DNA of 64,000 nucleotides from Nitrospira sp. (GTDB lineage Bacteria > Nitrospirota > Nitrospiria > Nitrospirales > Nitrospiraceae): the NCBI GenBank assembly GCA_018242725.1, contig JAFEBI010000012.1:124001-188000 (forward strand), in the 5' to 3' direction. Position 1 is the stretch's first letter, and each line of letters opens with the position of its first letter. Shown here in pieces: positions 8,422-63,700 of this stretch. The notes under the pieces are model-generated. The model was given only the letters and a program-made list of their open reading frames with translations. It ran no database searches and was not told the DNA's origin. The translations under genes were made by a program, and so were the position numbers.

Positions 8422-9639
8422 ATGGATGCGGCAAATGGGTGGACTGCGGCAAACCATCTGTGGGAATTCCTCACTCAGGATGTAGCAATCGTCGGCGTAT
8501 TGTCCAGTCCAATGCTGAGCTGGATCGGTATGGCGGGGATTCTTGCCATGTGCTGCTGGCATGGCGCCATACTCCTTCGTGGAGCCTGTCGGATTCGACA
8601 GGCTTTGTGTCGAGTCCAATCACAGGTGTCGAGCCTTCTTCGCGCACGCCGACGATGGTCAACGGAATGGATTGTCACACCGACGTTGGGTAGAACAAGG
8701 CCGCTTCAAGATGAGTCGAAGGCGTCACGATGTGATCTCGATGATCTCAACGTGTTGGATCGGGCCCTGCGCGCTGAACGCGCGTTCGCCGTAGATTGGC
8801 TGTCTTACCGAAAGACCTTTTCCATCGAACAGTCGGCCTGGTTTGTTGAGCCGACAGTATCTGCGCAGAAATCGGCTGCGGAATTCTTTTCCTTCGAAGC
8901 CTCGATGGCGGAATACCTCAACATCGGGTTCTATCGGCAACTCCCGTCTTTTCTGACCGGTATGGGACTGATGTTCACGTTTCTGGCGATTCTGATCGGT
9001 CTGAGTAAACTTCATGCAAACGGCTCGCAGGTTGAAGGAATCGAAGGTCTCATTAACGGGCTCTCCGGAAAGTTTGTCACATCCATTGCCGGGTTGGCCT
9101 GTTCGAATGCGTTTACTCTTCTTGAAAACTCCGTGTGGTATCGCCTGAGCGCCCGATATCGGCGGTGTCTCTCGCTGTTGGATGAAGTCTTTCCTCAAAG
9201 GATTGTCGATCAACATGCCCAGCCTTCAGCAGGGCGGAATGGGTATGTGTCACCTATCGTGAGTCCCACCCGAAACGACAATGACAAACAAGTGGTTGAT
9301 GTCGTGCATCATCAACTCGGTACGACCGTGGCTGCCTTAACGAAGGTGTCAGAGTCTCTCACAGCGATGAGTGCGACTCAACGTGGCTCAATGGTCGACG
9401 ATCTTCCAAGAGAGATTGGCCATGAGGTTCACAAAGCACTGAAACGGGTGGTCCAGCCTCTGGCAGATGCGATTCAGGATCTCAACCGAACCATGAAAGG
9501 GCAGGCGATCCCGGTCCAGCTCTCAAAATCAGAAATGGAAACTATATTTCAGAAGCTGAAGACCCATGGAGCGACTATACAAACTACCCCTTCCGTCAAG
9601 ACAGGGAACAGTGTGAACAGTACGCCTCATCACGAGTAA
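8422..9639 (+). CDS. MotA/TolQ/ExbB-type channel subunit, ZorA-like
   Basis: A 405-residue inner-membrane protein. Hydrophobic helices lie at about 31-52, 174-195 and 215-238. The second and third carry the MotA/ExbB signature in the form typical of ZorA: LPSFLTGMGLMFTFLAILIGL, then INGLSGKFVTSIAGLACSNA and FTLLEN. A long soluble tail (about 245-405) follows, predicted largely helical, again as in ZorA, where the tail forms a cytoplasmic rod. With the MotB-like gene 15 bases downstream it should form a proton-driven stator-like complex. In Zorya phage defence ZorAB works with ZorC/D or ZorE; none is nearby, so defence is only one possibility. Start at ATG 8422 with AGAGGTG upstream. Confidence 0.78.
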   Translation: MDAANGWTAANHLWEFLTQDVAIVGVLSSPMLSWIGMAGILAMCCWHGAILLRGACRIRQALCRVQSQVSSLLRARRRWSTEWIVTPTLGRTRPLQDESKASRCDLDDLNVLDRALRAERAFAVDWLSYRKTFSIEQSAWFVEPTVSAQKSAAEFFSFEASMAEYLNIGFYRQLPSFLTGMGLMFTFLAILIGLSKLHANGSQVEGIEGLINGLSGKFVTSIAGLACSNAFTLLENSVWYRLSARYRRCLSLLDEVFPQRIVDQHAQPSAGRNGYVSPIVSPTRNDNDKQVVDVVHHQLGTTVAALTKVSESLTAMSATQRGSMVDDLPREIGHEVHKALKRVVQPLADAIQDLNRTMKGQAIPVQLSKSEMETIFQKLKTHGATIQTTPSVKTGNSVNSTPHHE

Positions 9640-9654: not shown

Positions 9655-10296
9655 ATGAGACATCGCACATCGCCGATTGCACAGGACTCTTCCGTTTCGC
9701 CTTCTGCTGTATCAAGTGGGGTGACCGATCTCATGACCTCGCTCGCCGTGATCTTCATCCTTCTGTTTGCCGCATATGTGAGCCGGGTTCACGAAAGCCA
9801 GGGAAGTCATGCGCAGGGTCCTCTATCTCCAGGGGAAGAACAACAACAACTCGTTCGCCCGCTCTTCAAGCATGAAGACCGCACGCCGGATGTTTTAGCG
9901 GTCAGCATACCGGATGTTGCGCTCAACTTTGACTTTGGGGAAAGCAGGCTACTCCCTCCCGCAGAGGCCTTTTTGTCGGAAACGATGCCACACTATGCCG
10001 CTATGGTGTGCGCACAAGGGGGCACAGAGGTGGAAGCCTTTGTCATAGAAGGATATACTGATGATCTTGGAGACGACATTCGCAATTTACGATTGAGCCA
10101 AGAGCGTTCGTTCGCCGTGTTGGCGAAGAGCGTGGAGGTGGTTCGTGAGAAACTTCCCTGGGCCTATGAATGCTTTCTGCAAAAGGCGACGGCAAATGGG
10201 CGCGGGAGACAGAATCTTCTACGGGACGATGCAGGAGGCCTGGATCGTGAGCGGAGCCGTCGGGTGATGTTTAAAATACACTTGCGCCCTCAGTAA
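9655..10296 (+). CDS. MotB/OmpA-type peptidoglycan-binding partner, ZorB-like
   Basis: A 213-residue protein with a short cytoplasmic N-terminus, one membrane helix at about 26-44 preceded by an aspartate (GVTDLMTSLAVIFILLF, D25) that matches the proton-carrying Asp of MotB/ZorB, and a periplasmic OmpA-like domain (about 80-213). In that domain FDFGESRLLP, EGYTDD...RNLRLSQERS and RERSRRVMFKI correspond to the peptidoglycan-binding core, though the usual NRR is replaced. A Cys pair (119, 173) may form a disulphide. It follows the ZorA-like gene by 15 bases and should be its obligate partner. OmpA-domain proteins of other ion-driven machines cannot be fully excluded. Confidence 0.8.
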   Translation: MRHRTSPIAQDSSVSPSAVSSGVTDLMTSLAVIFILLFAAYVSRVHESQGSHAQGPLSPGEEQQQLVRPLFKHEDRTPDVLAVSIPDVALNFDFGESRLLPPAEAFLSETMPHYAAMVCAQGGTEVEAFVIEGYTDDLGDDIRNLRLSQERSFAVLAKSVEVVREKLPWAYECFLQKATANGRGRQNLLRDDAGGLDRERSRRVMFKIHLRPQ

Positions 10297-12520: not shown

Positions 12521-13511
12521 AGAGGTACACGGTATAGCCAATATAGAAGAAAGCGCCGGCCGCCAGCAACCAGGGTCGCCAGCGCCCTCCAAGCAAAATT
12601 TGGAGCAGGCAGAGTCCCACTGCCTGTACCGCCAAGACCATGGTCGTCAATGCGGAGGGAGCGATCACCCATTCAGTTCCGATCAACCCGAGTGAGACAG
12701 GGAGCGTGCCTTGAAACACCATGGCGCCCGTCACATTGGCGACGGCGAGCCGGTCTTTCTTTCGATAGAGCCACAAAAAGCTGTTGGACATCTCCGGTAA
12801 TTCGGTGGCCAGTGGCGCGATGAGAAGCGTCAAGATCAAAGGCGACATTGAGAACAATCCCGCCATCGATTCTGCCGCCATTACAAACAAATGAGCGCCC
12901 AAGATCAAGCCACCCAGCCCTAACAGGGCTTGAAATGCAATCATCGGATGCGAGGGAGTCGTCGCGGTTCTGTCGAAGATGAGGGGGTCCAGCTCACCAC
13001 CTTCGTTCTCTCCAGCCGGCGCAAACTTCAGTTTCATGTAGTAAATGTACAAACAGATCAACCCCCCGGCGGCAATCAAATGGATCAGTCTCGATCGATC
13101 AAAGGCGCAACCCAATGCCACCAGGTAGCCGATCATGAAAAACGTCAGGTCTGTGAGGACATCGCGGTAGTTGAGATGAAATTGATCGGTGCGTTTGCCT
13201 GCTCGCGCATACAGCACCACCAACAGAGCCAAGATCGGCAGCACGAGCGTGCTGAGCATAAACGGCGCGCCAAGGATGGCGCCTAATCCGACGTCGATTT
13301 CTTCGTCGCTTTCGCCGAAGAAAATGGCAATGATCGGAATCGAGGTTTCAGGGAGCGTTGTGCCGATGGCCGCGAAGATGCTTCCTACCGCGCCCTCAGA
13401 AATCCCGAGCCGTTTGCCCAACCATTCGATCGCGTTGGTGAACAGCGCACATCCACCCAGTGTCACGACAACGGAGACGAGGAACAGGAGAACATAGTAC
13501 AGAGTGCTCAT
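12510..13511 (-). CDS. Sodium/calcium exchanger-type cation antiporter (CaCA family)
   Basis: A 333-residue integral membrane protein with about ten helices. The two alpha-repeats that define CaCA exchangers are both visible: GTTLPETSIPIIAIFFGE in the N-terminal half and IAPLATELPEMSNSFLWLY in the C-terminal half, each with the ion-coordinating glutamate. An acidic central loop (GENEGGELDPL) separates the halves. It probably exports calcium or a similar divalent cation in exchange for sodium, potassium or protons; the ion cannot be read from sequence. The start ATG overlaps the larC stop as ATGA. Coupling to larC raises the thought of nickel or calcium handling, but that is speculation. Confidence 0.87.
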   Translation of the reverse strand: MSTLYYVLLFLVSVVVTLGGCALFTNAIEWLGKRLGISEGAVGSIFAAIGTTLPETSIPIIAIFFGESDEEIDVGLGAILGAPFMLSTLVLPILALLVVLYARAGKRTDQFHLNYRDVLTDLTFFMIGYLVALGCAFDRSRLIHLIAAGGLICLYIYYMKLKFAPAGENEGGELDPLIFDRTATTPSHPMIAFQALLGLGGLILGAHLFVMAAESMAGLFSMSPLILTLLIAPLATELPEMSNSFLWLYRKKDRLAVANVTGAMVFQGTLPVSLGLIGTEWVIAPSALTTMVLAVQAVGLCLLQILLGGRWRPWLLAAGAFFYIGYTVYLYAS

Positions 13512-14713
13512 GCGCGGCCTCGCAGTTTCTTCTGGGTTGCTTGTCGATAGGCGTGCAAGGCTTCCTCCATGACGGTCTTCAGCGGACGACCGGATTGTTT
13601 TGCGATAGATTGACAGTCGATATATTCTGGTGCTGCCTTGTCCCAGCCCGCACCCAGGTCAGCCACCTTCATACGAACGGTTCCTCCCTGTATTGAGACC
13701 GGGACGATACGGCGCGGAAGGATCTGGCGAGTGAGTTCTTGCAGTCGCACGCCGAGCGTGGGCGTTTCCTGGAAGAGGATCTCAAGAATCGCGTTTGTCT
13801 GCTCCTTCGGGGTGAGGCAGGTCAATAACACACCTGGGCGACTCTTTTTCATAACAATAGGAACGAGGGCGACGTCGAGGGCGCCGAGATCGAAGAGTCG
13901 CTCCATGATGTGTTCATAGATTTGTGGATTGAGGTCGTCGAGATTCGTCTCAATTTGCATAATGCGTTCGGTATGATAAGTCTCCGGTGTCGAGTCGTCC
14001 TGAAGAAAGACGCGTAGCACATTTGGCCAGTCTTCTGGATCGCGGTCTCCTGCTCCATAGCCGACCGCAAGACTACGCATGACCGGCAGGGAGCCGAACC
14101 CCGATGCCAGGGTCCGCACGAGCGCCACGCCGGTCGGTGTGGCGAGTTCGTGCCGTGGCCCTTCGGAATAGACGGGAATGCCTTTGGCCAGTGCAGTGAC
14201 AGCCGGTCCCGGCACGGGTAAACGACCATGGGACGTTTGAATCGAACCAGCTCCCACATTGATCGGGGAGGAAGTCGCACGGGTCACATTCAGGAGATAG
14301 CAGCCCAGGATTCCTCCCACCACGTCGATGAATGAATCAACGACGCCTACCTCATGAAAGTGCACGTCTTTCGTCGGTACCTGATGGGCCAGTCCTTCCG
14401 CGTCTGCTAAGAGGTCGAAGACTGACAAGCTGCGCGCCTTGACCGGCTCTGGGAGCGTGCTGCGGATAATAATGCTTCGAATACGGGAGAGCGTGAGAGG
14501 TCGCTGAAATCCCTGTTGGATCAGCACGTCCACTTTCACGGCATGGAGCGCGCCACGATGGACCGCCCGCTTGCGTAAGGTGTAGCCGGATAGTTTCAGC
14601 CGATTGAGGCCATTGACGAGGTCTGCCCATGGCAGGCCCACGCCGACCAATGCGCCCAGGACCATGTCCCCGCTCACGCCAGAAAAACAATCGAAATGCA
14701 GATGTCGGCCCAC
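13508..14713 (-). CDS. larC: Nickel-pincer cofactor cyclometallase LarC
   Basis: LarC inserts nickel into the pyridinium bisthiocarboxylate mononucleotide, the last step of nickel-pincer nucleotide synthesis. The protein is 401 residues with the DUF111 hallmark start HLHFDCFSGVSGDMVLGAL, the histidine-rich DVHFHEVGVVDSFIDVVGG, and METNLDDLNPQ in the C-terminal half. In some lactobacilli larC needs a programmed frameshift; here the frame is continuous. It heads a five-gene chain through the exchanger, pdxA and rsmA with overlaps or two-base gaps. larB lies 0.8 kb away on the same strand, separated by a plus-strand gene; larE is not in the window. Confidence 0.92.
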   Translation of the reverse strand: MGRHLHFDCFSGVSGDMVLGALVGVGLPWADLVNGLNRLKLSGYTLRKRAVHRGALHAVKVDVLIQQGFQRPLTLSRIRSIIIRSTLPEPVKARSLSVFDLLADAEGLAHQVPTKDVHFHEVGVVDSFIDVVGGILGCYLLNVTRATSSPINVGAGSIQTSHGRLPVPGPAVTALAKGIPVYSEGPRHELATPTGVALVRTLASGFGSLPVMRSLAVGYGAGDRDPEDWPNVLRVFLQDDSTPETYHTERIMQIETNLDDLNPQIYEHIMERLFDLGALDVALVPIVMKKSRPGVLLTCLTPKEQTNAILEILFQETPTLGVRLQELTRQILPRRIVPVSIQGGTVRMKVADLGAGWDKAAPEYIDCQSIAKQSGRPLKTVMEEALHAYRQATQKKLRGRA

Positions 14714-15444: not shown

Positions 15445-15504
15445 CGATGAGGGATGAAGAGGGTAGTAGCCCTTGTCTTATCTTTCACTCCTCACGTTTC
15501 ACCG
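15445..15504. repeat. Imperfect inverted repeat between convergent genes
   Basis: A purine-rich arm (about 15446-15465, core TGAGGGATGAAGAGGG) faces a pyrimidine-rich arm (about 15477-15503), giving an imperfect hairpin on both strands. The right arm overlaps the end of larB and encodes its last residues VKREE. The core closely matches the element at 46817-46907, indicating a dispersed family. It may also end transcription of both convergent genes. Confidence 0.55.
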
Positions 15505-16246
15505 CTAATATGTTGATCCGATGCGCGAGACAGGCGGCGCCGAAGCCATTGTCGATATTCATGACCCCCACACCGGCCGCACAGGAATTGAGCATCGTCA
15601 ATAACGCAGCCACTCCTCCGAAACTGGCTCCATACCCTCGGCTCGTCGGGACCGCGATGACCGGACAGTGGACGAGTCCTCCCACGACGCTTGGCAAGAC
15701 ACCGTCCATTCCGGCCACCACGATAATGACCTGCGCATCAAACAAGCGATCTTTTTTCCCAAGTAAGCGATGGATCCCCGCGACTCCAACGTCGTACAGT
15801 CGTTCAACACGACTCCCCATCACTTCAGCCGTGATGCGAGCCTCTTCCGCTACCGGGACATCGGCTGTGCCGGCAGTCACCACCAGAATGTGGCCTTGCG
15901 CCTTCTGCCGTGCCGGATGGATCGTGACCAAACGTGCGTCCGAATAATACCGTGCTCGACGATCGAGACGCCTAATCGCCCGGGCGACCAGCGGTTCCGC
16001 ACGGGTGGCGAGGAACGGGCCTCCTTTTTTAAGCAAGGCTCGAGCGATCGCCACGACCTGTTCCGTGGTTTTTCCCTCGCAGAGCACGACCTCGGGAAAT
16101 CCTTGCCGCAGCGCCCGATGGTGGTCGAGCGAGGCAAAACCGAGATCTTCATACGGGAGAGATCGCAGGCGCTGGAGGCCTTGTTCGACGGTCAGTTGCC
16201 CCGTGCGAACCTGTTGAAGTAATTGTTCAAGCCCTTCTGCAATCAT
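15485..16246 (-). CDS. larB: Pyridinium-3,5-biscarboxylic acid mononucleotide synthase LarB
   Basis: LarB carboxylates and hydrolyses nicotinic acid adenine dinucleotide in the first step of nickel-pincer nucleotide synthesis. The 253-residue protein has the family N-terminus (LGFASLDHHRALRQGFPEVVLCEGK) and a PurE-like C-terminal half: VTAGTADVPVAEEA, YDVGVAGIHRLL, VVAGMDGVLPSVVGG, VPTSRGYGASFGG and NIDNGFGAA. These are the glycine-rich CO2-handling loops of the AIR-carboxylase fold. It starts two bases after gpsA and shares that gene's promoter. The last five residues come from a dispersed repeat, so the C-terminal tail is not ancestral sequence. Confidence 0.93.
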   Translation of the reverse strand: MIAEGLEQLLQQVRTGQLTVEQGLQRLRSLPYEDLGFASLDHHRALRQGFPEVVLCEGKTTEQVVAIARALLKKGGPFLATRAEPLVARAIRRLDRRARYYSDARLVTIHPARQKAQGHILVVTAGTADVPVAEEARITAEVMGSRVERLYDVGVAGIHRLLGKKDRLFDAQVIIVVAGMDGVLPSVVGGLVHCPVIAVPTSRGYGASFGGVAALLTMLNSCAAGVGVMNIDNGFGAACLAHRINILAVKREE

Positions 16247-16248
16247 AG

Positions 16249-17271
16249 TTATCCCTTTTCCAGTTTGGCATCCCGTTCCATCAGATCACTGACCGCTTGG
16301 CGACAGGACTTGTTCTCATAGAGGACGGCGTTGATCTCCTGAATGATGGGCATCTCGACCTGGTGACGCAAGGCCAGTGTCAGCGCGGCGCGAGCTGTTC
16401 TGATACCTTCGGCGACGGCCTGCATCCCGGTAACGATGGTCTCGAGCCGCTCACCTTTGCCGAGGCGTACCCCCACCGAATGATTACGACTGAGTGCTCC
16501 GGTGCAGGTCAAGACCAAGTCCCCAACGCCGGAGAGTCCATAAAATGTGCGAGGATCCGCTCCCATTGCGATACCAAGCCGGATGATTTCCGCCAACCCA
16601 CGGGTGATGAGAGCGGCGCGGGCATTCAGCCCGAGTTCCAGACCGTCAATGACGCCGGCGGCCAACGCCATCACATTCTTTAACGCCCCTCCTAGTTGGA
16701 CGCCCAGGGGATCGCTGTCGGCATACACGCGCAACCCTGGCGTCATCAACGCGTTCTGGAAGCGCTGGACGAGCGGCGCGTTCCGGCCTGCGAGGCAGAC
16801 GGCTGTCGGTCGTCCCGCGCTCAGTTCAGCGGCGAAGCTGGGTCCGGAGAGCACCATCAATGCGTTGTGCATGGAGAGTGGTAATTCGTCCTCCATCACC
16901 TGGGTCATCAATTTGGCTGTCTCTTCTTCAATACCCTTGGTCGCACAGATCAATGGAATGGGGTCGGATAAGAAGGGCTTCAAGTTCTGAAGCACCGATC
17001 GCGTGGCATGGGAAGGTACGACAAACACGAGCCCATCACACGAGCTCGTGGCTTCCTCCAAAGATGAGGTGGCGATCAATGCCTGTGGGAGAACGACACC
17101 CTTGAGAAAAATTGGGTTTTCCTGAGAGGTATTGATGGCGTGAACGACGTCCCGTTCATAGGCCCAGAGACGGACTTCCACTCCCTTCTCGGCCAGATGT
17201 TTGGCCAGGGCTGTCCCCCAAGCCCCGGCACCGATCACACACATCTTGCTGATGGAACCAGGCATAAGCAA
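16249..17271 (-). CDS. gpsA: Glycerol-3-phosphate dehydrogenase (NAD(P)+)
   Basis: GpsA reduces dihydroxyacetone phosphate to sn-glycerol-3-phosphate, the backbone of membrane phospholipids. Visible are the dinucleotide-binding CVIGAGAWGTALAKHL, CATKGIE, the substrate/catalytic region LSGPSFAAEL and ALKNVMALAAG with its catalytic lysine, and GLSGVGDLVLTCTGALSRN. Length is normal at 340. Start choice: a TTG at 17271 has GGAG ten bases upstream, whereas the ATG at 17265 would be sixteen bases away, so the TTG is slightly preferred. A nearly perfect promoter lies at 17317-17346, and larB follows two bases after the stop. Confidence 0.94.
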   Translation of the reverse strand: MLMPGSISKMCVIGAGAWGTALAKHLAEKGVEVRLWAYERDVVHAINTSQENPIFLKGVVLPQALIATSSLEEATSSCDGLVFVVPSHATRSVLQNLKPFLSDPIPLICATKGIEEETAKLMTQVMEDELPLSMHNALMVLSGPSFAAELSAGRPTAVCLAGRNAPLVQRFQNALMTPGLRVYADSDPLGVQLGGALKNVMALAAGVIDGLELGLNARAALITRGLAEIIRLGIAMGADPRTFYGLSGVGDLVLTCTGALSRNHSVGVRLGKGERLETIVTGMQAVAEGIRTARAALTLALRHQVEMPIIQEINAVLYENKSCRQAVSDLMERDAKLEKG

Positions 17272-18829: not shown

Positions 18830-19630
18830 TCAATCCAACGCCAACGTCAGGCATTTCGCTGACCCCCCGGATTTCATGAATTCATCCAGCTGAGCAGTGT
18901 GGCTGGCATACCCTCTGGCACGGAGCCAGGTCTGTGTCGTGGGACATCCGGCAGGGAGGACGACATGTTTTCCGACACAGACCGCATTGCAGGCGAACGT
19001 CAGGGCTTCAGCTTCTGGAACAGCAAAGCGGAGCTGGTCTGGAATGCGTTCAGCGATTGCCTGCCGGCCATATCGATCGAACGCCTCTGGAAAGTAAAGA
19101 AGCTCGCCACCGCTCAACGGACAGAAACAGGTATCGAGATGGTAGAAGCGATTGTCGATGAGTTCGAGCGGAATGATTTCTCGATGGAAGTGCTCGCTGA
19201 GGATCGGGTACACACCGATATCCGATCGCTGCCGATACCCACCGAACCAGGTATCGGACAATCCCAGGAGATCGCCCGCGCCCTCAAAGTGAAGGCCGGT
19301 CTGCACCGTCATGACGTCATACCCCTGCCGGCGAAACCAACGCTCGACATGCGCTTCCTCTCGCTGGCGCTCAGGATGTCGGAAGTGACTCACGACGGCT
19401 GTGCGTCCGACAACCAGCCCGGCATTTGCCGTAAACACAAGATCCGGTAGTCCGGGAATGGGGGGCATCCGCTCGAGCACCACACCTAAGTTCTGATCAA
19501 AAATCTCCATCAAGGTACGCCACTGTGAGACGGCTCGCTCGTGGTCGACTCGGTTGCTGAGACGCATCCAGGGATTGATCTCATACTCGATACCGAAAAA
19601 ATCCGGTGGGCAGACCAGGAGGCGACTCAT
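18830..19630 (-). CDS. Arginine dihydrolase-type guanidine-group hydrolase
   Basis: A 266-residue member of the pentein (amidinotransferase/deiminase) superfamily. It aligns by motif with the N-terminal half of cyanobacterial ArgZ/AgrE, which turns arginine into ornithine, CO2 and two ammonia. Seen here: DLVFTANAG with N69, LHFEGAGD, YHLDTCFCPL with H164, and GGSAKCLTL with nucleophile C260. ArgZ's catalytic residues N71, H168 and C264, as I recall them, fall at matching spacing; that Asn separates dihydrolases from ordinary dimethylargininases. The start overlaps the preceding ornithine-cyclodeaminase-like gene as ATGA. In cyanobacteria both activities are fused in one chain in the opposite order. 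An N-dimethylarginine hydrolase is the main alternative. Confidence 0.78.
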   Translation of the reverse strand: MSRLLVCPPDFFGIEYEINPWMRLSNRVDHERAVSQWRTLMEIFDQNLGVVLERMPPIPGLPDLVFTANAGLVVGRTAVVSHFRHPERQREEAHVERWFRRQGYDVMTVQTGLHFEGAGDLLGLSDTWFGGYRQRSDIGVYPILSEHFHREIIPLELIDNRFYHLDTCFCPLSGGELLYFPEAFDRYGRQAIAERIPDQLRFAVPEAEALTFACNAVCVGKHVVLPAGCPTTQTWLRARGYASHTAQLDEFMKSGGSAKCLTLALD

Positions 19631-20883
19631 GCTTGCCTCCCCAGAACCCGAGCCAGTTCTGTTAGAAACGATGCTGCGTCCATGACAAGACCGACTGCTT
19701 GAAAACTGCCTCGATCGGCTAACTTTGTTGGGACCGAGGGATTCACGTCGACACAGACTGTCGGGATGGTCGCCGGGAGCAGATTGCCGGTGGCAATGGC
19801 ATGCAGCGTTGACGCAACCAACAGCGCCAATCCCACACCGGGAATCATAGCTCGCATGGCGCTTTGTGCTTCGACAGAATCTGTGATCACCCCAGGCAAG
19901 GGGCCATCGTCACGGATCGTCCCAGCGATGACGACCGATACCTCTTGTCGGACACAGGCTGCCATGATCCCTTGCGTGATCACGCCGGAAGTCACGGCTG
20001 CCTGAATACTGCCGATGGTACGAATGCGATTGATGGTCCGTAAATGGTGTTCGTGGCCATGGGGAACTGCACGCCCGGCTGTAAGTCCGTACCCGAGCGA
20101 GGTGCCATATAGATCGGCTTCCATGTCATGCGCAGCCAGTGCGTTACCGCAGAACAGCACCTGGATAAAGCCCTGTTCGATCAGCCACGTGAGCGCCTCC
20201 CGACCACCGGCATGAATGATGGCCGGTCCTCCGGCGAGCAACACTTTGGAGCCAGGTTGCTCTTGCTGGTATTGAGCACGCAATCGTCTCATCCGAGCCG
20301 CGATATCAGCGATGACGTGCCCATGGGGTCGCTCCGACGAGACATGCGACTCCATGAATCCAAACACATCACGTTCTTGCGGACGCTGCAAGGGAATGAC
20401 CCGTACACCAGCACGGCCGACTATGACTCGATCGCCACGGCCAACCTCGCCCATGGGAACTGCGCGCGCTGCCAATCCTTGCTCATCCACGACGATCGCA
20501 AGGTCCATCTCGATGCGATCGACATCCAGCCATCGGCCATTGAGCCGAATCTGGGTGGGTAAGTGGGTCGTGGCGTAGAAGTCGTCGGGTAACAGGCCGT
20601 CGGCCGGCGCACGATCACTCCGACAGTCAGCCTCACCTTCAACTAAAGCTCCGTGTGGTTGAATCGCTTTCAGGATATCATTCAGGAGACTATACGAGGT
20701 CGCGCGGATGACGATGCGAGCACGGGAGGGTTCTTCACGTGTCTTGCCGATGTGCACGTCTTCCAGGTCGAAGGTTCCACCCATCATCACGATAAGGTCC
20801 AGCACCTTCGCCAGCATAAGCGAGTCGATGATGTGTCCTTGCAGACACACACGTTCTTGATGCTGATCCATAGAAGTACTCAT
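19627..20883 (-). CDS. LOR/SDH-type ornithine cyclodeaminase (TIGR00300-like)
   Basis: A 418-residue protein of the LOR/SDH bifunctional-enzyme conserved-domain family. Members in methanogens and the C-terminal half of cyanobacterial ArgZ/AgrE convert ornithine to proline with release of ammonia. Typical segments are the N-terminal EGHIIDSLMLAKVLDLI-like stretch, MGGTFDLEDVHIGK, the central LLAGGPAIIHAGG, the GNALAAHDMEADLYGTSLG stretch, and a nucleotide-binding C-terminal half. It lies 60 bases after truD and overlaps the arginine dihydrolase start by four bases. Together the pair could take arginine to proline. Start at ATG 20883 lacks a clear ribosome site; ATG 20871 is possible. Confidence 0.82.
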   Translation of the reverse strand: MSTSMDQHQERVCLQGHIIDSLMLAKVLDLIVMMGGTFDLEDVHIGKTREEPSRARIVIRATSYSLLNDILKAIQPHGALVEGEADCRSDRAPADGLLPDDFYATTHLPTQIRLNGRWLDVDRIEMDLAIVVDEQGLAARAVPMGEVGRGDRVIVGRAGVRVIPLQRPQERDVFGFMESHVSSERPHGHVIADIAARMRRLRAQYQQEQPGSKVLLAGGPAIIHAGGREALTWLIEQGFIQVLFCGNALAAHDMEADLYGTSLGYGLTAGRAVPHGHEHHLRTINRIRTIGSIQAAVTSGVITQGIMAACVRQEVSVVIAGTIRDDGPLPGVITDSVEAQSAMRAMIPGVGLALLVASTLHAIATGNLLPATIPTVCVDVNPSVPTKLADRGSFQAVGLVMDAASFLTELARVLGRQA

Positions 20884-20942: not shown

Positions 20943-21989
20943 TTAAGGAGTGGAAGGAGTCGTTTTCATCAGTTCCCTGAGCACGCTCGTGGCATAGGCG
21001 CCGGGAGGCAGGCCGAAGGAGAGAGTCAGGACATTTCCGCTCAACGCCCAGTTCAGTTCCGTGAGGGGAACGCGCAGCGCGCGGCGCTCACCTCGAAATC
21101 CGCAGGCTTTGGCGGCGGTGATGAGGGCGTCTTTGGTGGCGCCCGCTTCGGTGATGACGGCTTCTTCGACTGTGCCGGGCTCACCCCCGGCCCAAGATAC
21201 GCGTGACCCAAAGAGGATCCCGGTCGGGCTGATCTCAAAGCGATCCGCTCGTGGTTGTTCCTTCTCCGCATCGTCGACCTGAAAGCAAGCGCCGTTGTCC
21301 TGTTTCATCGCCCAGTCGCCGCTGAACAGACGATCGATCTGATCGATCCGGCGGGCGAGGATCCGATTGAACAGAAACGACTGATAGGTATTGAGATACC
21401 AGATGCGCTGATTGCGATTCATCTTTTCACGCCGACGCGCATCATGGAGGAGGGCGGCGCCGGTTTGGTAGTTGGCTCCATCTTTCCCTTGCCGCTGAGG
21501 GCCGAAGTAGTTGGGTACGCCGCGTGCGCTCAGTTGGTGAAGAACAGCAGGTACGCTGTCGGTTGCGTGATCAGCGACGTGACGGATCACAAGACGGAAT
21601 CGATTGCCGGCATGGTGACCGGTGCGGAGCCGATTGCGATGGCGTCCGAGGGTGGTCACGTTCAGGATGGTGTCATCAACGGAGAGGCCGGCGACTTGTT
21701 CAGAAGACACGCCTTGCAGGGAAATCATTTGTGTCGTCACGGCTCGCGCGTCTTTCAGGCCTGCGACTCCGATGGCTTGCGCCTTGATCCCCAATGTCGA
21801 GGAGAGCCGTCGGACGAGATCTGGCGTGGAAAGGCCACGCTTCGTGATCGTGATGTAGAGGTGTTCTCCTTCGCCGCAGGGCAGGTAGAGGGGCCGCTCT
21901 TCAACCTGAAAGTCCTCCGGTACAGAACGGATTCGTCCACCGATTCCAGGAAGGTCGCTTGTCAGAAAGGGTTCGTTCAGTCGTTCCAT
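20943..21989 (-). CDS. truD: tRNA pseudouridine(13) synthase
   Basis: TruD isomerises uridine 13 in tRNA-Glu. The catalytic motif GLKDARAVTTQ holds the conserved aspartate, followed by the NRFRLVIRHV region and VPNYFGPQRQGKDG; the insertion domain and the C-terminal NVLTLSFGLPPGAYATSVLRE are complete. I use ATG 21989 with AAGGA upstream; a GTG at 22022 has no ribosome site and would run into the divergent phosphoesterase upstream region. Length is then 348, normal for the family. It may be co-transcribed with the two arginine-catabolic genes downstream, though the functional link is not obvious. Confidence 0.93.
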   Translation of the reverse strand: MERLNEPFLTSDLPGIGGRIRSVPEDFQVEERPLYLPCGEGEHLYITITKRGLSTPDLVRRLSSTLGIKAQAIGVAGLKDARAVTTQMISLQGVSSEQVAGLSVDDTILNVTTLGRHRNRLRTGHHAGNRFRLVIRHVADHATDSVPAVLHQLSARGVPNYFGPQRQGKDGANYQTGAALLHDARRREKMNRNQRIWYLNTYQSFLFNRILARRIDQIDRLFSGDWAMKQDNGACFQVDDAEKEQPRADRFEISPTGILFGSRVSWAGGEPGTVEEAVITEAGATKDALITAAKACGFRGERRALRVPLTELNWALSGNVLTLSFGLPPGAYATSVLRELMKTTPSTP

Positions 21990-22071
21990 CGGTCCTTCGT
22001 ACGGCCTCGCCTCAGTGGCCACATGCTATACTTTTTCTGGTCCAAGCGGGGAAAGGATTGTGGGATACCAG

Positions 22072-57829: not shown

Positions 57830-58633
57830 CTAGCGAAGACTCAGGACATCCATCATATCGTACAGACCGGGTGGTTGGCGGACGATCCATCGTGCAGCGC
57901 GGAGAGCTCCACGGGCAAAAGTATCACGGCTACTGGCTCGATGCGTCACCTCTATGCGTTCTCCCATGCCCCCAAACAGAACAGTGTGGTCTCCGACGAT
58001 ATCACCGGCGCGAATGGTTTGTATCCCAATTTCACCTTTAGTCCGTTCCCCGATCAATCCTTTACGAGCATAGACACCGACTTGATTCAAGTCACGGCTT
58101 ACGGAACGTGCAAGGACTTCGGCAATCTTGAGGGCTGTGCCGCTTGGAGCGTCTTTCTTCAACCTGTGGTGGGCCTCAATCACTTCGACATCGTAGTCGT
58201 CTCCAAGGGTCTTGGCCATCTCACTGATGACTTTGTAGAGGAGGTTGATACCGACGCTCATGTTTGGAGAAAACACACAGGGAATATGTTGGGTGAGCGT
58301 TTTAAGCTCATCGAGCTGGTCGGTTGAGAATCCGGTTGTTCCAATGACCGCTGCGCGACGTGAGCGAGCGACTGTCTGCATGTGATCAAGGGTCGCCTCG
58401 GGGGAAGAAAAGTCGACCACGACCTCCCCTCGCTCCATCAAGGCCGATAGATCTTCCGTGATCGGGATGCCTGAGCGTCCTGATCCAGCGAATTCACCCG
58501 CATCCTCTCCCAATGCTGGGTGGCCTTTCCCCTCTAGTGCCCCTACCAGCATCAATGCGGTGGAATCCCTGACCAGAGACACCAACCTGCAACCCATTCG
58601 TCCGGCAGCGCCGGCTACAACAACTTTGATCAT
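57830..58633 (-). CDS. dapB: 4-hydroxy-tetrahydrodipicolinate reductase
   Basis: DapB reduces the DapA product with NAD(P)H to tetrahydrodipicolinate. The 267-residue protein has the dinucleotide loop VVVAGAAGRMGCRLV, VVDFSSPEATLDHMQ, IGTTGFS, FSPNMSVGINLL, the catalytic E(A)HHRLKKDAPSGTAL and RAGDIVGDHTV. GGGAAGAAG stands directly before the ATG. Last gene of the arg-lys cluster, 22 bases after dapA. In this organism its product is likely taken by DapL. Confidence 0.96.
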   Translation of the reverse strand: MIKVVVAGAAGRMGCRLVSLVRDSTALMLVGALEGKGHPALGEDAGEFAGSGRSGIPITEDLSALMERGEVVVDFSSPEATLDHMQTVARSRRAAVIGTTGFSTDQLDELKTLTQHIPCVFSPNMSVGINLLYKVISEMAKTLGDDYDVEVIEAHHRLKKDAPSGTALKIAEVLARSVSRDLNQVGVYARKGLIGERTKGEIGIQTIRAGDIVGDHTVLFGGMGERIEVTHRASSRDTFARGALRAARWIVRQPPGLYDMMDVLSLR

Positions 58634-58655
58634 CTTCTTCCCACCATCAGCATCG

Positions 58656-59534
58656 CTAACATGCGATCAATGAGGCATCCTTAAGGGCCTGAATCAGCTT
58701 CTCGCGTGTGTCTTGCGCCATTGGGCAGAGGGGCAGGCGTAGCTCTGGGTCGATCTTGCCCATCAAGCTCAATGCTTCCTTCACCGGAATTGGATTTGTT
58801 TCAAAGAATAGCGCAGCAAAGACAGGAGAGAGTTTGAAATGAATACGTCGAGCATCCTCGATCTTTCCTTCGGCAAACGCCTTTACAAGATCGGCCATTT
58901 CGGCGGGCATGATGTTTGCGGTGACAGTGATGACGCCCTTCCCGCCGACCGCCATCATCGGGAGGGTAAGAGCATCATCACCGGCTAGTACAGTGAGGCG
59001 GTCGCCACACATCTGTACGATGTCCGAGGCTTGTTGGACGGATCCACTCCCTTCCTTGACTCCAACAATTGTCGGAAGAGCGGTGAGACGGGCAATTGTG
59101 GCCGGGAGCATGTTCACTCCGGTACGACCAGGAATGTTGTATAGGACCAAGGGAAGGTCGACAGCCTCGGCAACGGCCCGGTAATGGCGGTATAGGCCTT
59201 CTTGTGTCGGTTTGTTGTAGTAGGGAGTGATCAACAATGATCCATCGGCGCCGGCCTGCTTTGCATGTTTTGTTAGGGCAATAGCTTCGTCGGTGCTATT
59301 TGATCCGGTGCCGGCAACTACTGGGACACGGCGACGGACAACCTCCACCGTGAGCTCAATCACTCGATTATGCTCATCGTGAGAAAGAGTGGCGGACTCC
59401 CCGGTCGTTCCGCACGGGACAATCCCGTTCGTCCCCTTGGTAATCTGCCATTCAATCAGGTCAGCCAGGGCCCGTTCATCGACCTTGCCCTTTCGAAATG
59501 GCGTCACGATCGCGACAAGAGATCCTGTAAACAT
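58656..59534 (-). CDS. dapA: 4-hydroxy-tetrahydrodipicolinate synthase
   Basis: DapA condenses pyruvate with aspartate semialdehyde through a lysine Schiff base. The protein of about 292 residues shows FTGSLVAIVTPFRKGKVD, VPCGTTGESATL, YNKPTQEGLYRHY, LYNIPGRTGVNM (catalytic Tyr), and VGVKEGSGS with the Schiff-base lysine. ATG 59534 has CGGAG five bases upstream and begins two bases after the lysA stop; a GTG two codons earlier overlaps that stop. It commits aspartate to lysine and cell-wall synthesis and is a usual target of lysine feedback. Confidence 0.96.
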   Translation of the reverse strand: MFTGSLVAIVTPFRKGKVDERALADLIEWQITKGTNGIVPCGTTGESATLSHDEHNRVIELTVEVVRRRVPVVAGTGSNSTDEAIALTKHAKQAGADGSLLITPYYNKPTQEGLYRHYRAVAEAVDLPLVLYNIPGRTGVNMLPATIARLTALPTIVGVKEGSGSVQQASDIVQMCGDRLTVLAGDDALTLPMMAVGGKGVITVTANIMPAEMADLVKAFAEGKIEDARRIHFKLSPVFAALFFETNPIPVKEALSLMGKIDPELRLPLCPMAQDTREKLIQALKDASLIAC

Positions 59535-59536
59535 AC

Positions 59537-60808
59537 TCACTCCGTTTTGTTCAGGAACGAGGGGATGACTTCCCCTTTGACAAGGTCATTGTACGTTTCA
59601 CGTTCACGAATGACGTGGAATTCCCCACCCTTGACGAGGACTTCTGGGACCCGCGGTCGCGAGTTGTAGTTTGACGCCATCACAAAACCGTAGGCCCCGG
59701 CGCTCATGACCGCCAACAAGTCCTCGGGTTGTATGTTCGGCAACGAGCGTTCTTTGGCTAGGAAGTCTCCCGATTCGCACACGGGCCCAACGATATCGAC
59801 CATTTGCTTAGGGCGATGGACTGCCGCTTCGCTCACCGGTCGAATCTCATGGTACGCACCGTACAAACTGGGGCGAATGAGATCGTTCATGGCGGCGTCG
59901 ACGATAACGAAGCGCTTTGTCTCTCCGGCTTTCTCGTACAACGCTTTGGTCACCAGGATGCCGGCGTTGCCGACGATAACACGGCCCGGTTCCATGACCA
60001 GCGTGAGTCCCAATCCTTTGACGAGGGGAGAAATCGCGTGCGCCAGATCTTGAGGCAACGGCGGCTTCTCATCGGAATAGGTGATGCCGAGTCCGCCGCC
60101 GATATTCAGATAACGAATATTGATGTCATGGTCTTTCAGTGTGTGAATCAGAGCCACGACCTTCTTCAACGAATCGACGAACGGCGTCACATCCGTCAAC
60201 TGTGAGCCGATATGAGCATGGACTCCGACGACGTCAATGTGACTCATCGAGGAGGCTATTTTGTATTCTTCCAACGCACGATCGGCTGCGATCCCGAACT
60301 TGCTTTTCTTCATCCCCGTCGAAATATACGGATGTGTTTTAGGGTCCACATCGGGATTGATTCGCAATGCAATTCGAGCCTTCATGCCGACCGAAGCCGC
60401 CACATCGTTGATAGAGCGGATTTCAGCGGCGGACTCGACGTTGAACATGAGGATATTCGCTTTGAGCGCATCACGAATTTCGTCCGGCGACTTGCCGACG
60501 CCGGCAAAGACGATTTTGGATGCAGGCACGCCGGCCTTCATGGCCCTGAACAGTTCACCGCCAGATACAATATCCACTCCGCTTCCTTCTCGTGCCATCA
60601 GCCGCAGAATAGCGAGATTAGAGTTGGCCTTCATCGCAAAGGCGATGACATGCGGGATATCCTTGAACGCGCTATCATAGGCATGAAAATGACGGATGAG
60701 AGTCTCGTGGCTGTAGATATAACAAGGAGTGCCCAGTTCTTTCGCGATCCGGCTGACTGGCACTCGCTCGCAGTATAATTCACCCTGTTGGTACTCAAAG
60801 CTATGCAT
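59537..60808 (-). CDS. lysA: Diaminopimelate decarboxylase
   Basis: LysA decarboxylates meso-diaminopimelate to lysine with PLP. The 423-residue fold-III enzyme has TPCYIYSHETL, the cofactor lysine in AFAMKANSNLAIL, the glycine-rich NIGGGLGITY phosphate loop, VMEPGRVIVGNAG, VDAAMNDLIRPSLYGAYH, GPVCESGDFLA with the second catalytic Cys, and AGAYGFVMASNYNSRPR. AAGGA stands eight bases before the ATG. It lies between the lptM-like gene and dapA. Confidence 0.97.
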   Translation of the reverse strand: MHSFEYQQGELYCERVPVSRIAKELGTPCYIYSHETLIRHFHAYDSAFKDIPHVIAFAMKANSNLAILRLMAREGSGVDIVSGGELFRAMKAGVPASKIVFAGVGKSPDEIRDALKANILMFNVESAAEIRSINDVAASVGMKARIALRINPDVDPKTHPYISTGMKKSKFGIAADRALEEYKIASSMSHIDVVGVHAHIGSQLTDVTPFVDSLKKVVALIHTLKDHDINIRYLNIGGGLGITYSDEKPPLPQDLAHAISPLVKGLGLTLVMEPGRVIVGNAGILVTKALYEKAGETKRFVIVDAAMNDLIRPSLYGAYHEIRPVSEAAVHRPKQMVDIVGPVCESGDFLAKERSLPNIQPEDLLAVMSAGAYGFVMASNYNSRPRVPEVLVKGGEFHVIRERETYNDLVKGEVIPSFLNKTE

Positions 60809-60849
60809 CGTCTCAATCCTTACTCAAAAGTAGGTTCGTCTGCTAGGCG

Positions 60850-61077
60850 TCACCGAGTCCCCACCGGCTGTGAAGGTGGAAGACCGATGTCGTGCCCGTC
60901 CAGAGACAGGTCAGGAGCTCCTGTATCGACTGCCTCGTGCTCTGCCTGGAGGGCGTGTTGTTTCTTTTGCTTTTCGACGGTAGGGGCAACCCCCACGTAG
61001 TCAGGAGGAACAGGGGATCCCACGACGCCACAGGCGATCAACTGCCCTGTCGAGATCAGAATCGCCAGTGCTCTCAT
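60850..61077 (-). CDS. LptM/YifL-like small lipoprotein
   Basis: A 75-residue lipoprotein encoded between argH and lysA. The ATG at 61077 overlaps the argH stop (ATGA) and has GGAGAAGGA upstream. The signal ends in a lipobox LIAC (Cys at about 16), followed by GVVGSPVPPDYVG, which resembles the CGxKGPLxxP motif of LptM/YifL lipoproteins that also often precede lysA. LptM helps the LptDE complex form its disulphides at the outer membrane. The tail is polar and disordered. The motif match is loose, so I leave the symbol blank. Confidence 0.7.
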   Translation of the reverse strand: MRALAILISTGQLIACGVVGSPVPPDYVGVAPTVEKQKKQHALQAEHEAVDTGAPDLSLDGHDIGLPPSQPVGTR

Positions 61078-62486
61078 GAGAGGTCCTTCTCCAGCTCTTT
61101 GATCCGTTGCTCTACTCGAGTTCGAGCGGTACCACCAACTTGCTCTTTGTGATCGATCGCAGCCGCGGTGGTCAATCGGGTGAATACGTCCTGTGTGATT
61201 CGCCCTGAAAATCCTCGCAACTTTTCGAGTGAGAGATCGGCCACCTCACAGCCCTGATCGAGGGCAGCTCGAACGATCCGTCCTGTAATGCCGTGTGCCT
61301 CACGAAACGGCACACCCTTCATAACCAAGTAGTCGGCCAGCTCGGTGGCCAGCAGTCCGCCTCCTTGCAATGCGCTTGCGAGCGGTTCTCGGTTGACTTG
61401 TACATGGTGCATCAATTCGGCCATCACCTCAAGCGAGGAAGCCACCGTATCCAGCGCGTCAAAGAGGGCGGGTTTGTCTTCCTGTAAGTCCCGATTATAG
61501 GTAAGGGGCAGCGCTTTCAGTACGGTCAACAGGCTGAGCAAGTGCCCATATACGCGACCTGTTTTTCCCCGAACCAACTCGGGAATATCCGGGTTCTTTT
61601 TCTGCGGCATCATACTGCTTCCCGTGCAGAAGGCATCGGGCAAGTCGACGAATTGGAACTCTTGCGAGGCCCACAGGATCAATTCTTCACTGAGCCGTGA
61701 CAAATGCATCATCACGATGGAAAGTGCCGAGGCCACTTCAATCATGAAATCTCGATCAGACACCGCGTCCATGCTGTTGGCGGTGACGTCAGGGAAATCT
61801 AATAACTCCGCCGTGTACCGCCGATTGATCGGATAATTCGTGCCGGCGAGAGCACCGGATCCCAGCGGCATGACGTTGAGTCGGCTCCTCGCGTCACGCA
61901 ATCGACCCTTGTCCCGTTCAAGCATCTCGACATAGGCTAACAGGTGATGAGCGAACAGGACCGGTTGAGCTCGTTGGAGATGGGTATAGCCGGGCATCAC
62001 CACCGTACGGTTCTCCGCGGCCTTTTCAACCAACGCACGTTGCAGATCGAGTAGTCGTGCGTGGAGTTTGTCCAAGTAGGTGCGTAAATACAACCGAATA
62101 TCCAGCGCCACCTGATCATTTCGGCTTCGACCGGTGTGCAACTTTCCTCCCAAGGGGCCGATGATCTCCGTTAATCGCCGCTCGATTGCCATGTGAATAT
62201 CTTCGTCGTGCGCCGTAAAAGCGAACTGACCGCGATCCAGCTCTCCTTTCACAGCGTCCAACCCACGAATGATTTTCCGAGTCTCGGTTTCTGTCAGGAT
62301 CTTTGCCTTTGCAAGCGTTTTACAGTGGGCGATGCTCCCGGCAATATCCTCGGCATAGAGCCGACGGTCGATCATCACCGAGCGCGTAAACGTTTCCACT
62401 AAGCGATGAGTCTTCTCTCGAAACCGGCCCTCCCAGGCTTTGCCTGCGTGTTCAGCGGCCTTCGTATGCTGTCTGTGTTTGGCCAT
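61074..62486 (-). CDS. argH: Argininosuccinate lyase
   Basis: ArgH splits argininosuccinate into arginine and fumarate. The 470-residue protein belongs to the fumarase/aspartase superfamily and shows WEGRFREKTHRLVE, DEDIHMAIERRL, GKLHTGRSRNDQVALD, MPGYTHLQRAQPV with the catalytic histidine region, and the signature GSSMMPQKKNPD loop with the catalytic serine. Its ATG shares one base with the argG stop (TGATG). The final codons overlap the LptM-like gene. Confidence 0.97.
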   Translation of the reverse strand: MAKHRQHTKAAEHAGKAWEGRFREKTHRLVETFTRSVMIDRRLYAEDIAGSIAHCKTLAKAKILTETETRKIIRGLDAVKGELDRGQFAFTAHDEDIHMAIERRLTEIIGPLGGKLHTGRSRNDQVALDIRLYLRTYLDKLHARLLDLQRALVEKAAENRTVVMPGYTHLQRAQPVLFAHHLLAYVEMLERDKGRLRDARSRLNVMPLGSGALAGTNYPINRRYTAELLDFPDVTANSMDAVSDRDFMIEVASALSIVMMHLSRLSEELILWASQEFQFVDLPDAFCTGSSMMPQKKNPDIPELVRGKTGRVYGHLLSLLTVLKALPLTYNRDLQEDKPALFDALDTVASSLEVMAELMHHVQVNREPLASALQGGGLLATELADYLVMKGVPFREAHGITGRIVRAALDQGCEVADLSLEKLRGFSGRITQDVFTRLTTAAAIDHKEQVGGTARTRVEQRIKELEKDLS

Positions 62487-63700
62487 CAGGACGAGGCTTT
62501 CTTTCGTTGCGCCCGGATCTTGAGCCGCAATGCGTTCAATCGGATGAACCCTTCCGCATCCTTTTGGTTATAGACCTCATCTTCCTCGAAGGTGGCGATG
62601 TCCAATCGATACAGTGATCGCTGCGATTTGCGCCCCGCCAATGTACAACTTCCCTTATAGAGCTTGACTCGTGCAATGCCGCTGACGTCTTTCTGGGCGT
62701 CATCGATTGCGGCTTGAAGCATCTCACGCTCCGGACTGAACCAATAGCCGTTGTAGATCAAGCTGGCAAACCGTGGGATCAAACCGTCACGGAAATGCAG
62801 GACCTCACGGTCCATCGTCAAGGACTCGATCCCTCGATGCGCCACATGGAGAATCGTACCTCCAGGTGTTTCGTACACGCCACGCGATTTCATCCCAACA
62901 TAGCGGTTTTCTACAAGGTCAACCCGACCAATCCCGTGTGCGCCACCTATCGTGTTGAGATGAGCAAGTAAGGCCGCAGGGCGCATCTTTTTTCCATCGA
63001 CGGCGACAGGATTGCCTGCTTGATACTCGATCTCGATCTCCTGCGGCTTATTCGGCGCCTTTTCTGGAGAGACGGTTAATTGGAAGATTTCGTCCGGTGG
63101 CGATTCCCATGGGTCTTCGAGAATACCCCCTTCGTAGCTGATATGGAACAGATTGGGGTCTGTGCTGTAGGGTTTCGCCTTGGTCGCGGTCACAGGGATG
63201 CCGTGCCTCTCGGCATACTCAATGAGTTCACGGCGAGACCGCATGGTCCATTCCCGCCAGGGAGCGATGATCTTGAGCTGCGGGGCAAGTGCCATGTAGG
63301 TGAGCTCGAAGCGAACCTGGTCGTTGCCTTTTCCCGTGGCTCCGTGCGACACAGCTTCGGCGCCTTCTTTCAATGCGATCTCGGCTTGTCGGCGGGCAAT
63401 CAACGGGCGAGCGATCGATGTCCCTAGGAGATAACAGCCTTCATACAGGGCATTGCCGCGCAACATCGGGAAGACATAATCTTTGACGAAGGTCTCTCGC
63501 AGATCCTCAACATAAACCTTCTTGACGCCGAGCGCTTGGGCCTTGGCCTTCACGGCTTTCAGATCTTCCCCCTGCCCAAGATCGGCACAAAAGGCGATGA
63601 TCTCGGCATGATAGGTTTCCTGAAGCCACTTGAGGATGACTGAGGTGTCGAGTCCTCCGGAGTATGCCAAGACGATTTTCTTGAGTGATGTGGGTCTCAT
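62486..63700 (-). CDS. argG: Argininosuccinate synthase
   Basis: ArgG joins citrulline and aspartate with ATP. The 404-residue protein has the N-type ATP pyrophosphatase motif [55 protein letters not shown] and [16 protein letters not shown], all intact. It starts ten bases after argF ends. Arginine made here is the substrate of the dihydrolase at 18.8 kb, so the two loci represent synthesis and breakdown. Confidence 0.97.

Follow-up and report, generated by a model that had tools for sequence, protein, structure and literature searches.

Two overlapping genes on the minus strand of a Nitrospira contig most probably encode a two-protein version of AgrE, the cyanobacterial fusion enzyme of arginine-to-proline conversion. 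We put the probability of this reading at about 0.75. Under it, arginine would be converted to ornithine and ornithine to proline, the two genes would be coupled by an ATGA overlap, and the nickel-pincer nucleotide (NPN) is somewhat favored as the cofactor of the second step. The families, the active-site residues, the pairing of the genes and the conserved co-occurrence with lar genes are seen directly in the sequence, in structure models and in conservation across genomes. The new elements are the conserved split variant and a well-defined test case for NPN clients; the two enzymes themselves are known from the cyanobacterial fusion.

Layout of the gene pair

The window is the whole analyzed stretch of 64,000 nucleotides. 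The pair occupies the following positions in it.

19627..20883, minus strand: ornithine cyclodeaminase, TIGR00300, 418 aa, with the LOR/SDH N-terminal region and ArgZ-like C-terminal regions (profiles, model)
18830..19630, minus strand: ArgZ-type arginine dihydrolase, 266 aa (profile, Sll1336 match, model)
19627..19630, minus strand: ATGA overlap of the cyclodeaminase stop and the dihydrolase start (sequence; 27 of 39 relatives overlap by the same 4 bases)

In the direction of reading, the cyclodeaminase ORF (20883 to 19627) is followed by the dihydrolase ORF (19630 to 18830), whose ATG sits inside the ATGA ending the first ORF. The earlier note, made from the sequence alone, had described the two AgrE/ArgZ domains as separate genes that overlap as ATGA and stand in the order opposite to the cyanobacterial fusion. 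This domain reading is supported: both ORFs are found at the above positions, both families are matched, the overlap is seen in the sequence, and the cyclodeaminase comes first here whereas the dihydrolase comes first in AgrE/ArgZ. The NCBIfam family NF052231 (bifunctional ArgZ/AgrE) covers a single polypeptide with the dihydrolase followed by the cyclodeaminase, and the locus, with two ORFs in reversed order, falls outside it. The ATGA overlap would couple translation of the cyclodeaminase and the dihydrolase, and therefore the two proteins would probably be made in a fixed ratio.

The dihydrolase

Arginine dihydrolase models are the best matches of the 266-aa protein (NF052232, 283.7 bits; Sll1336, E = 3.7e-72). 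At the profile level the assignment made in the earlier note thus stood as regards the best-matching models, but the score of 284 bits did not reach the curated NF052232 cut-off of 450 bits. Homologues from planctomycetes, armatimonads and other Nitrospirota likewise fail this cut-off, and therefore NF052232 appears to be fitted to the fused domain of cyanobacteria. The codons of the key residues are as follows.

19424..19426, minus strand: Asn69, the dihydrolase Asn, equivalent to ArgZ Asn71 (alignment with Sll1336 and the N71S mutant chain 6juz)
19133..19141, minus strand: His164-Leu165-Asp166, HLD where dimethylargininases (DDAHs) have HLK (alignment)
18851..18853, minus strand: Cys260, the nucleophile, equivalent to ArgZ Cys264 (aligned to chain 6jv1, the C264S mutant)

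Residues N69, E116, H164, D166 and C260 align with N71, E118, H168, D170 and C264 of ArgZ/AgrE, and the fit to ArgZ claimed earlier for Asn, His and Cys at 69, 164 and 260 is confirmed. The PDB holds ArgZ N71S and C264S/A mutants with a trapped intermediate, substrate or arginine. At all twelve active-site positions checked, 18 of 18 Nitrospirota rows and the planctomycete rows are identical to ArgZ/AgrE, as is every two-gene homologue. The AlphaFold model (pLDDT 96) overlays ArgZ (6juz/6jv0/6jv1) with a TM-score of 0.96 and an rmsd of 1.1 Å.

A score of 284 bits, below the dihydrolase cut-off and not much higher than the 240 bits obtained with the DDAH-Mtb model, would also be compatible with an arginine deiminase or a hydrolase of the dimethylargininase type. 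The DDAH-Mtb model, NF045659, gave 239.8 bits, below its own curated cut-off of 300 bits. The actinobacterial DDAH-Mtb proteins belong to the same superfamily and share the active-site letters of the 266-aa protein, including Asn; hence Asn is not a sharp discriminator and taken alone does not prove a dihydrolase. They form, however, a separate, long-branched clade. We consider this alternative unlikely, since ArgZ is the best match in both sequence and fold (TM 0.96 vs about 0.82 for DDAH), Asn stands where arginine deiminases and DDAHs have Asp, HLD replaces the HLK of DDAHs, and the gene is paired with that of an ornithine enzyme. The 266-aa protein reads FTANAG and HLD where the DDAH of locus L173 reads FVED and HLK, and Asp and Lys occupy these columns in the DDAHs of L173, L175 and L177. 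Identity as a DDAH proper was ruled out by the residues, the tree, in which true DDAHs are very distant, and the fold. Clustering with dimethylargininases or a missing Asn, named in the earlier note as evidence against its reading, was not observed: Asn69 is present and DDAHs branch far off.

The NF045659 'dimethylargininase' proteins of four actinobacterial loci (L170, L171, L172 and L176) keep the ArgZ-type Asn and HLD letters. Judging by these letters, the name DDAH looks doubtful for them.

As an ArgZ-type dihydrolase, the 266-aa enzyme would remove both guanidine nitrogens of arginine. Cys260 would attack arginine, Asn69 would set the dihydrolase rather than the deiminase outcome, and the products would be ornithine, two NH3 and CO2.

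The cyclodeaminase

The 418-aa protein matches TIGR00300, the profile named in the earlier note as a check, with 467.1 bits over 402 residues, above the curated cut-off of 410.8 bits. It contains PF04455, PF21571 and PF21570, i.e. all three parts of the ArgZ C-terminus. The motifs GNA..HD, GH.HH, RDDGP and TKL.DRG, common to AgrE and 3c2q, form invariant columns (alignments A1 and A3). The best PDB matches of the model (pLDDT 87) are the AgrE structures 6lrf and 6lrg; next in fold come the NAD-using deoxyhypusine synthases rather than LarA. AgrE lies on a long branch of the OCD tree, outside the rows of the two-gene type.

The enzyme would convert ornithine to proline and NH3 by hidden redox. 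A bound nicotinamide-type cofactor would take a hydride from C-alpha, the ring would close with loss of NH3, and the hydride would then be given back.

Distribution of the pair

A sample of 158 Nitrospirota genomes was scanned for TIGR00300. Full matches were found in 40 genomes, all from the class of the window. The survey of gene order suggested in the earlier note gave a uniform answer: in all 40 the pair is adjacent, with the dihydrolase directly after the cyclodeaminase on the same strand, and 27 of the 39 genomes other than that of the window keep the 4-base overlap. Such consistent pairing far exceeds what chance would give. Of the named relatives that share this gene neighborhood, Nitrospira sp. 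UBC2 (L150) is the closest.

A further 80 TIGR00300 loci came from a single scan across bacterial and archaeal genomes. The cyclodeaminase is followed by the dihydrolase on the same strand in 23 of these loci, mostly from Planctomycetota and also from Armatimonadota, Nitrospirota and unplaced bacteria, while two genes in the reverse order, dihydrolase first, were seen at none of the 80. The split, cyclodeaminase-first form is widespread; what is known from cyanobacteria is the fused form. The presence of the split arrangement in Planctomycetota and Armatimonadota shows that it is not a peculiarity of nitrifiers.

An adjacent dihydrolase is absent from 52 of the 73 loci with sufficient room downstream (Actinomycetota, Chloroflexota, methanogens and part of Planctomycetota). 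Such loci would fit a cyclodeaminase that acts on a related diamino acid, with the two genes only loosely tied in function. The tight overlap and the pairing across phyla argue against this, as do the family and the crystal ligand, both of which point to ornithine, and we regard this reading as highly improbable.

Two further genomes of the phylum were observed to differ. A reduced genome of the same genus (G105, 2.0 Mb) has neither the cyclodeaminase nor the dihydrolase and keeps larE and proC. Another genome of the same class (G131, locus L168) encodes a dihydrolase homologue with 44% identity and all active-site residues, and has no TIGR00300.

Gene neighborhood and lar genes

Four neighbors of the pair are relevant here.

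20943..22022, minus strand: truD, conserved upstream neighbor (NCBIfam TIGR00094, 183.7 bits; precedes the cyclodeaminase across the family)
16249..17271, minus strand: gpsA, conserved downstream neighbor (profile match, conserved context)
15485..16246, minus strand: larB, nickel-pincer cofactor biosynthesis (NF033503, 289 bits, cut-off 175)
13508..14713, minus strand: larC, nickel insertion, with the LarC1 and LarC2 regions joined in a single ORF (profile matches)

The lar genes, which the earlier note did not include, lie 2.6–6 kb from the gene pair. The larC product scores above the cut-offs of TIGR00299 (183 bits) and NF052512 (140 bits) and matches PF01969 with 423 bits. As larE is found on another contig (G000:C11:155490-156260, 314 bits), LarB, LarC and LarE are all encoded and the NPN pathway is complete in the genome. 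For LarA, the Lar_N domain (PF09861) has no match at E ≤ 0.001 in this genome (96% complete). Of the 35 genomes in the window's family, 34 keep larB linked to the pair. Given that genes on the opposite strand lie between, larB and larC are neighbors of the pair rather than members of the same operon. A lar-cyclodeaminase operon outside the family was sought in the 80 further loci and not found; lar genes are near TIGR00300 only in L150, with the same gene order, and in L107, with larC about 9 kb off. In other phyla no recurrent neighbor of note was seen besides the dihydrolase.

Elsewhere in the window, a plus-strand MotA/OmpA-type pair (8422-9639 and 9655-10296) gives weak, sub-cut-off matches to Zorya ZorA/ZorB.

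Cofactor of the cyclodeaminase

NCBIfam names TIGR00300 'ornithine cyclodeaminase, nickel-pincer nucleotide-dependent'; among the papers accessible to the search, none dealt with NPN together with cyclodeaminase or explained the name. In Nitrospirota, LarE scores above the cut-off in 40 of 40 genomes with TIGR00300 vs 79 of 118 without it (Fisher p 3e-6), and in Planctomycetota LarC is present in 41 of 41 vs 112 of 158 (Fisher p 6e-6), p-values that are too small, since genomes within a phylum are related and not independent. Over many phyla, LarC is found in 46 of 50 genomes with TIGR00300, the four misses being metagenome-assembled genomes. The two phyla and this mixed set point the same way. 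LarA itself is absent from 29 of the 40 TIGR00300-containing genomes of the phylum sample, and two named controls, Methanocaldococcus jannaschii and Haloferax volcanii, encode TIGR00300 and LarC and lack LarA. Published work places larBCE in Synechocystis and in H. volcanii. It is known that larBCE occur without larA in about 15% of all genomes and in the majority of cyanobacteria, the client being 'yet to be identified' (PMC11796402).

A cyclodeaminase that uses only NAD+, with the nearby larB and larC serving another NPN enzyme, is possible, though we think it the less probable case. According to PDB titles, the AgrE ternary complex 6lrg has ornithine and NAD+ bound, and the fold resembles that of the NAD-dependent deoxyhypusine synthase. 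The lar linkage is confined to the window's family apart from L107. Furthermore, lar genes occur without TIGR00300 or LarA in the S. elongatus and C. glutamicum controls, in G105 and in many Thermodesulfovibrionia and Planctomycetota, and therefore other NPN users must exist. Against NAD+ as the only cofactor, genomes with TIGR00300 almost never lack lar genes, even where LarA is missing. Hidden hydride transfer could proceed with either cofactor. On balance, NPN, the product of LarB, LarC and LarE, is somewhat more probable than NAD+ as the hydride carrier. We give even odds to a broader proposal, in which TIGR00300 would be a main 'missing' NPN user in organisms making NPN without LarA, larB, larC and larE would be kept in this bacterium at least partly for the pair, and NAD+ in the AgrE crystal would be a stand-in ligand.

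Weak TIGR00300 matches (17-33 bits, positions about 184-257) were noted in separate ORFs, most of them about 320-390 aa long, in G018, G055, G145 and others of the phylum sample, and in the Planctomycetota sample. These ORFs probably belong to the GSU2086 family (NF052581), possibly another NPN client.

Physiological role

The genome of the window encodes proC (306 bits), as do all 40 TIGR00300-containing genomes of the phylum sample. Consequently, proline does not depend on the pair alone, and a role of the pair as a replacement for a lost proC was ruled out. Proline is thought to come from ornithine in methanogens without the glutamate route, and the M. jannaschii control matches TIGR00300 and not proC. 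Both points would suit a pair that is the main proline supply of the cell in place of the glutamate route; the presence of proC in all these genomes makes this improbable here.

At 41 kb from the pair, the window also contains argG and argH, two genes of arginine biosynthesis. Taken with proC in the genome, they indicate that the pair is best read as serving arginine catabolism or nitrogen recycling, which we infer to be likelier than substitution for a lost proC. Such a role has been proposed for AgrE (PMC8262935).

We also observed that argG and argH belong to an amino acid biosynthesis cluster, argG-argH-lysA-dapA-dapB (57833-63700, minus strand).

Comparison with known systems

With larB and larC nearby, larE on a different contig and larA missing from the genome, the locus makes a clean test case for NPN clients. 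It may help show NPN use where LarA, the only known user family, is missing. LarB, LarC and LarE form with LarA a known system whose pathway genes, but not LarA, are present in this genome. The LarA fold is unlike that of the cyclodeaminase, which resembles deoxyhypusine synthase; hidden hydride transfer would be the principle common to LarA and the cyclodeaminase.

The archaeal-type TIGR00300 protein 3c2q from Methanococcus maripaludis is of the same family, above the cut-off, and likewise a stand-alone protein. However, the archaeal members examined have no adjacent dihydrolase, unlike the Nitrospira pair. The closest counterparts are AgrE (Alr4995, Anabaena) and ArgZ (Sll1336, Synechocystis), which share with the pair the two domains, the dihydrolase active-site residues and the folds. 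They are single polypeptides with the dihydrolase first, whereas the Nitrospira proteins come from two overlapping genes and their active sites have no covalent link; both activities, and any physical complex of the two proteins, are predictions. As separate proteins, each half-reaction can be purified and assayed alone, which is impossible with the cyanobacterial fusion, and the split pair lets one ask whether channeling needs the covalent link.
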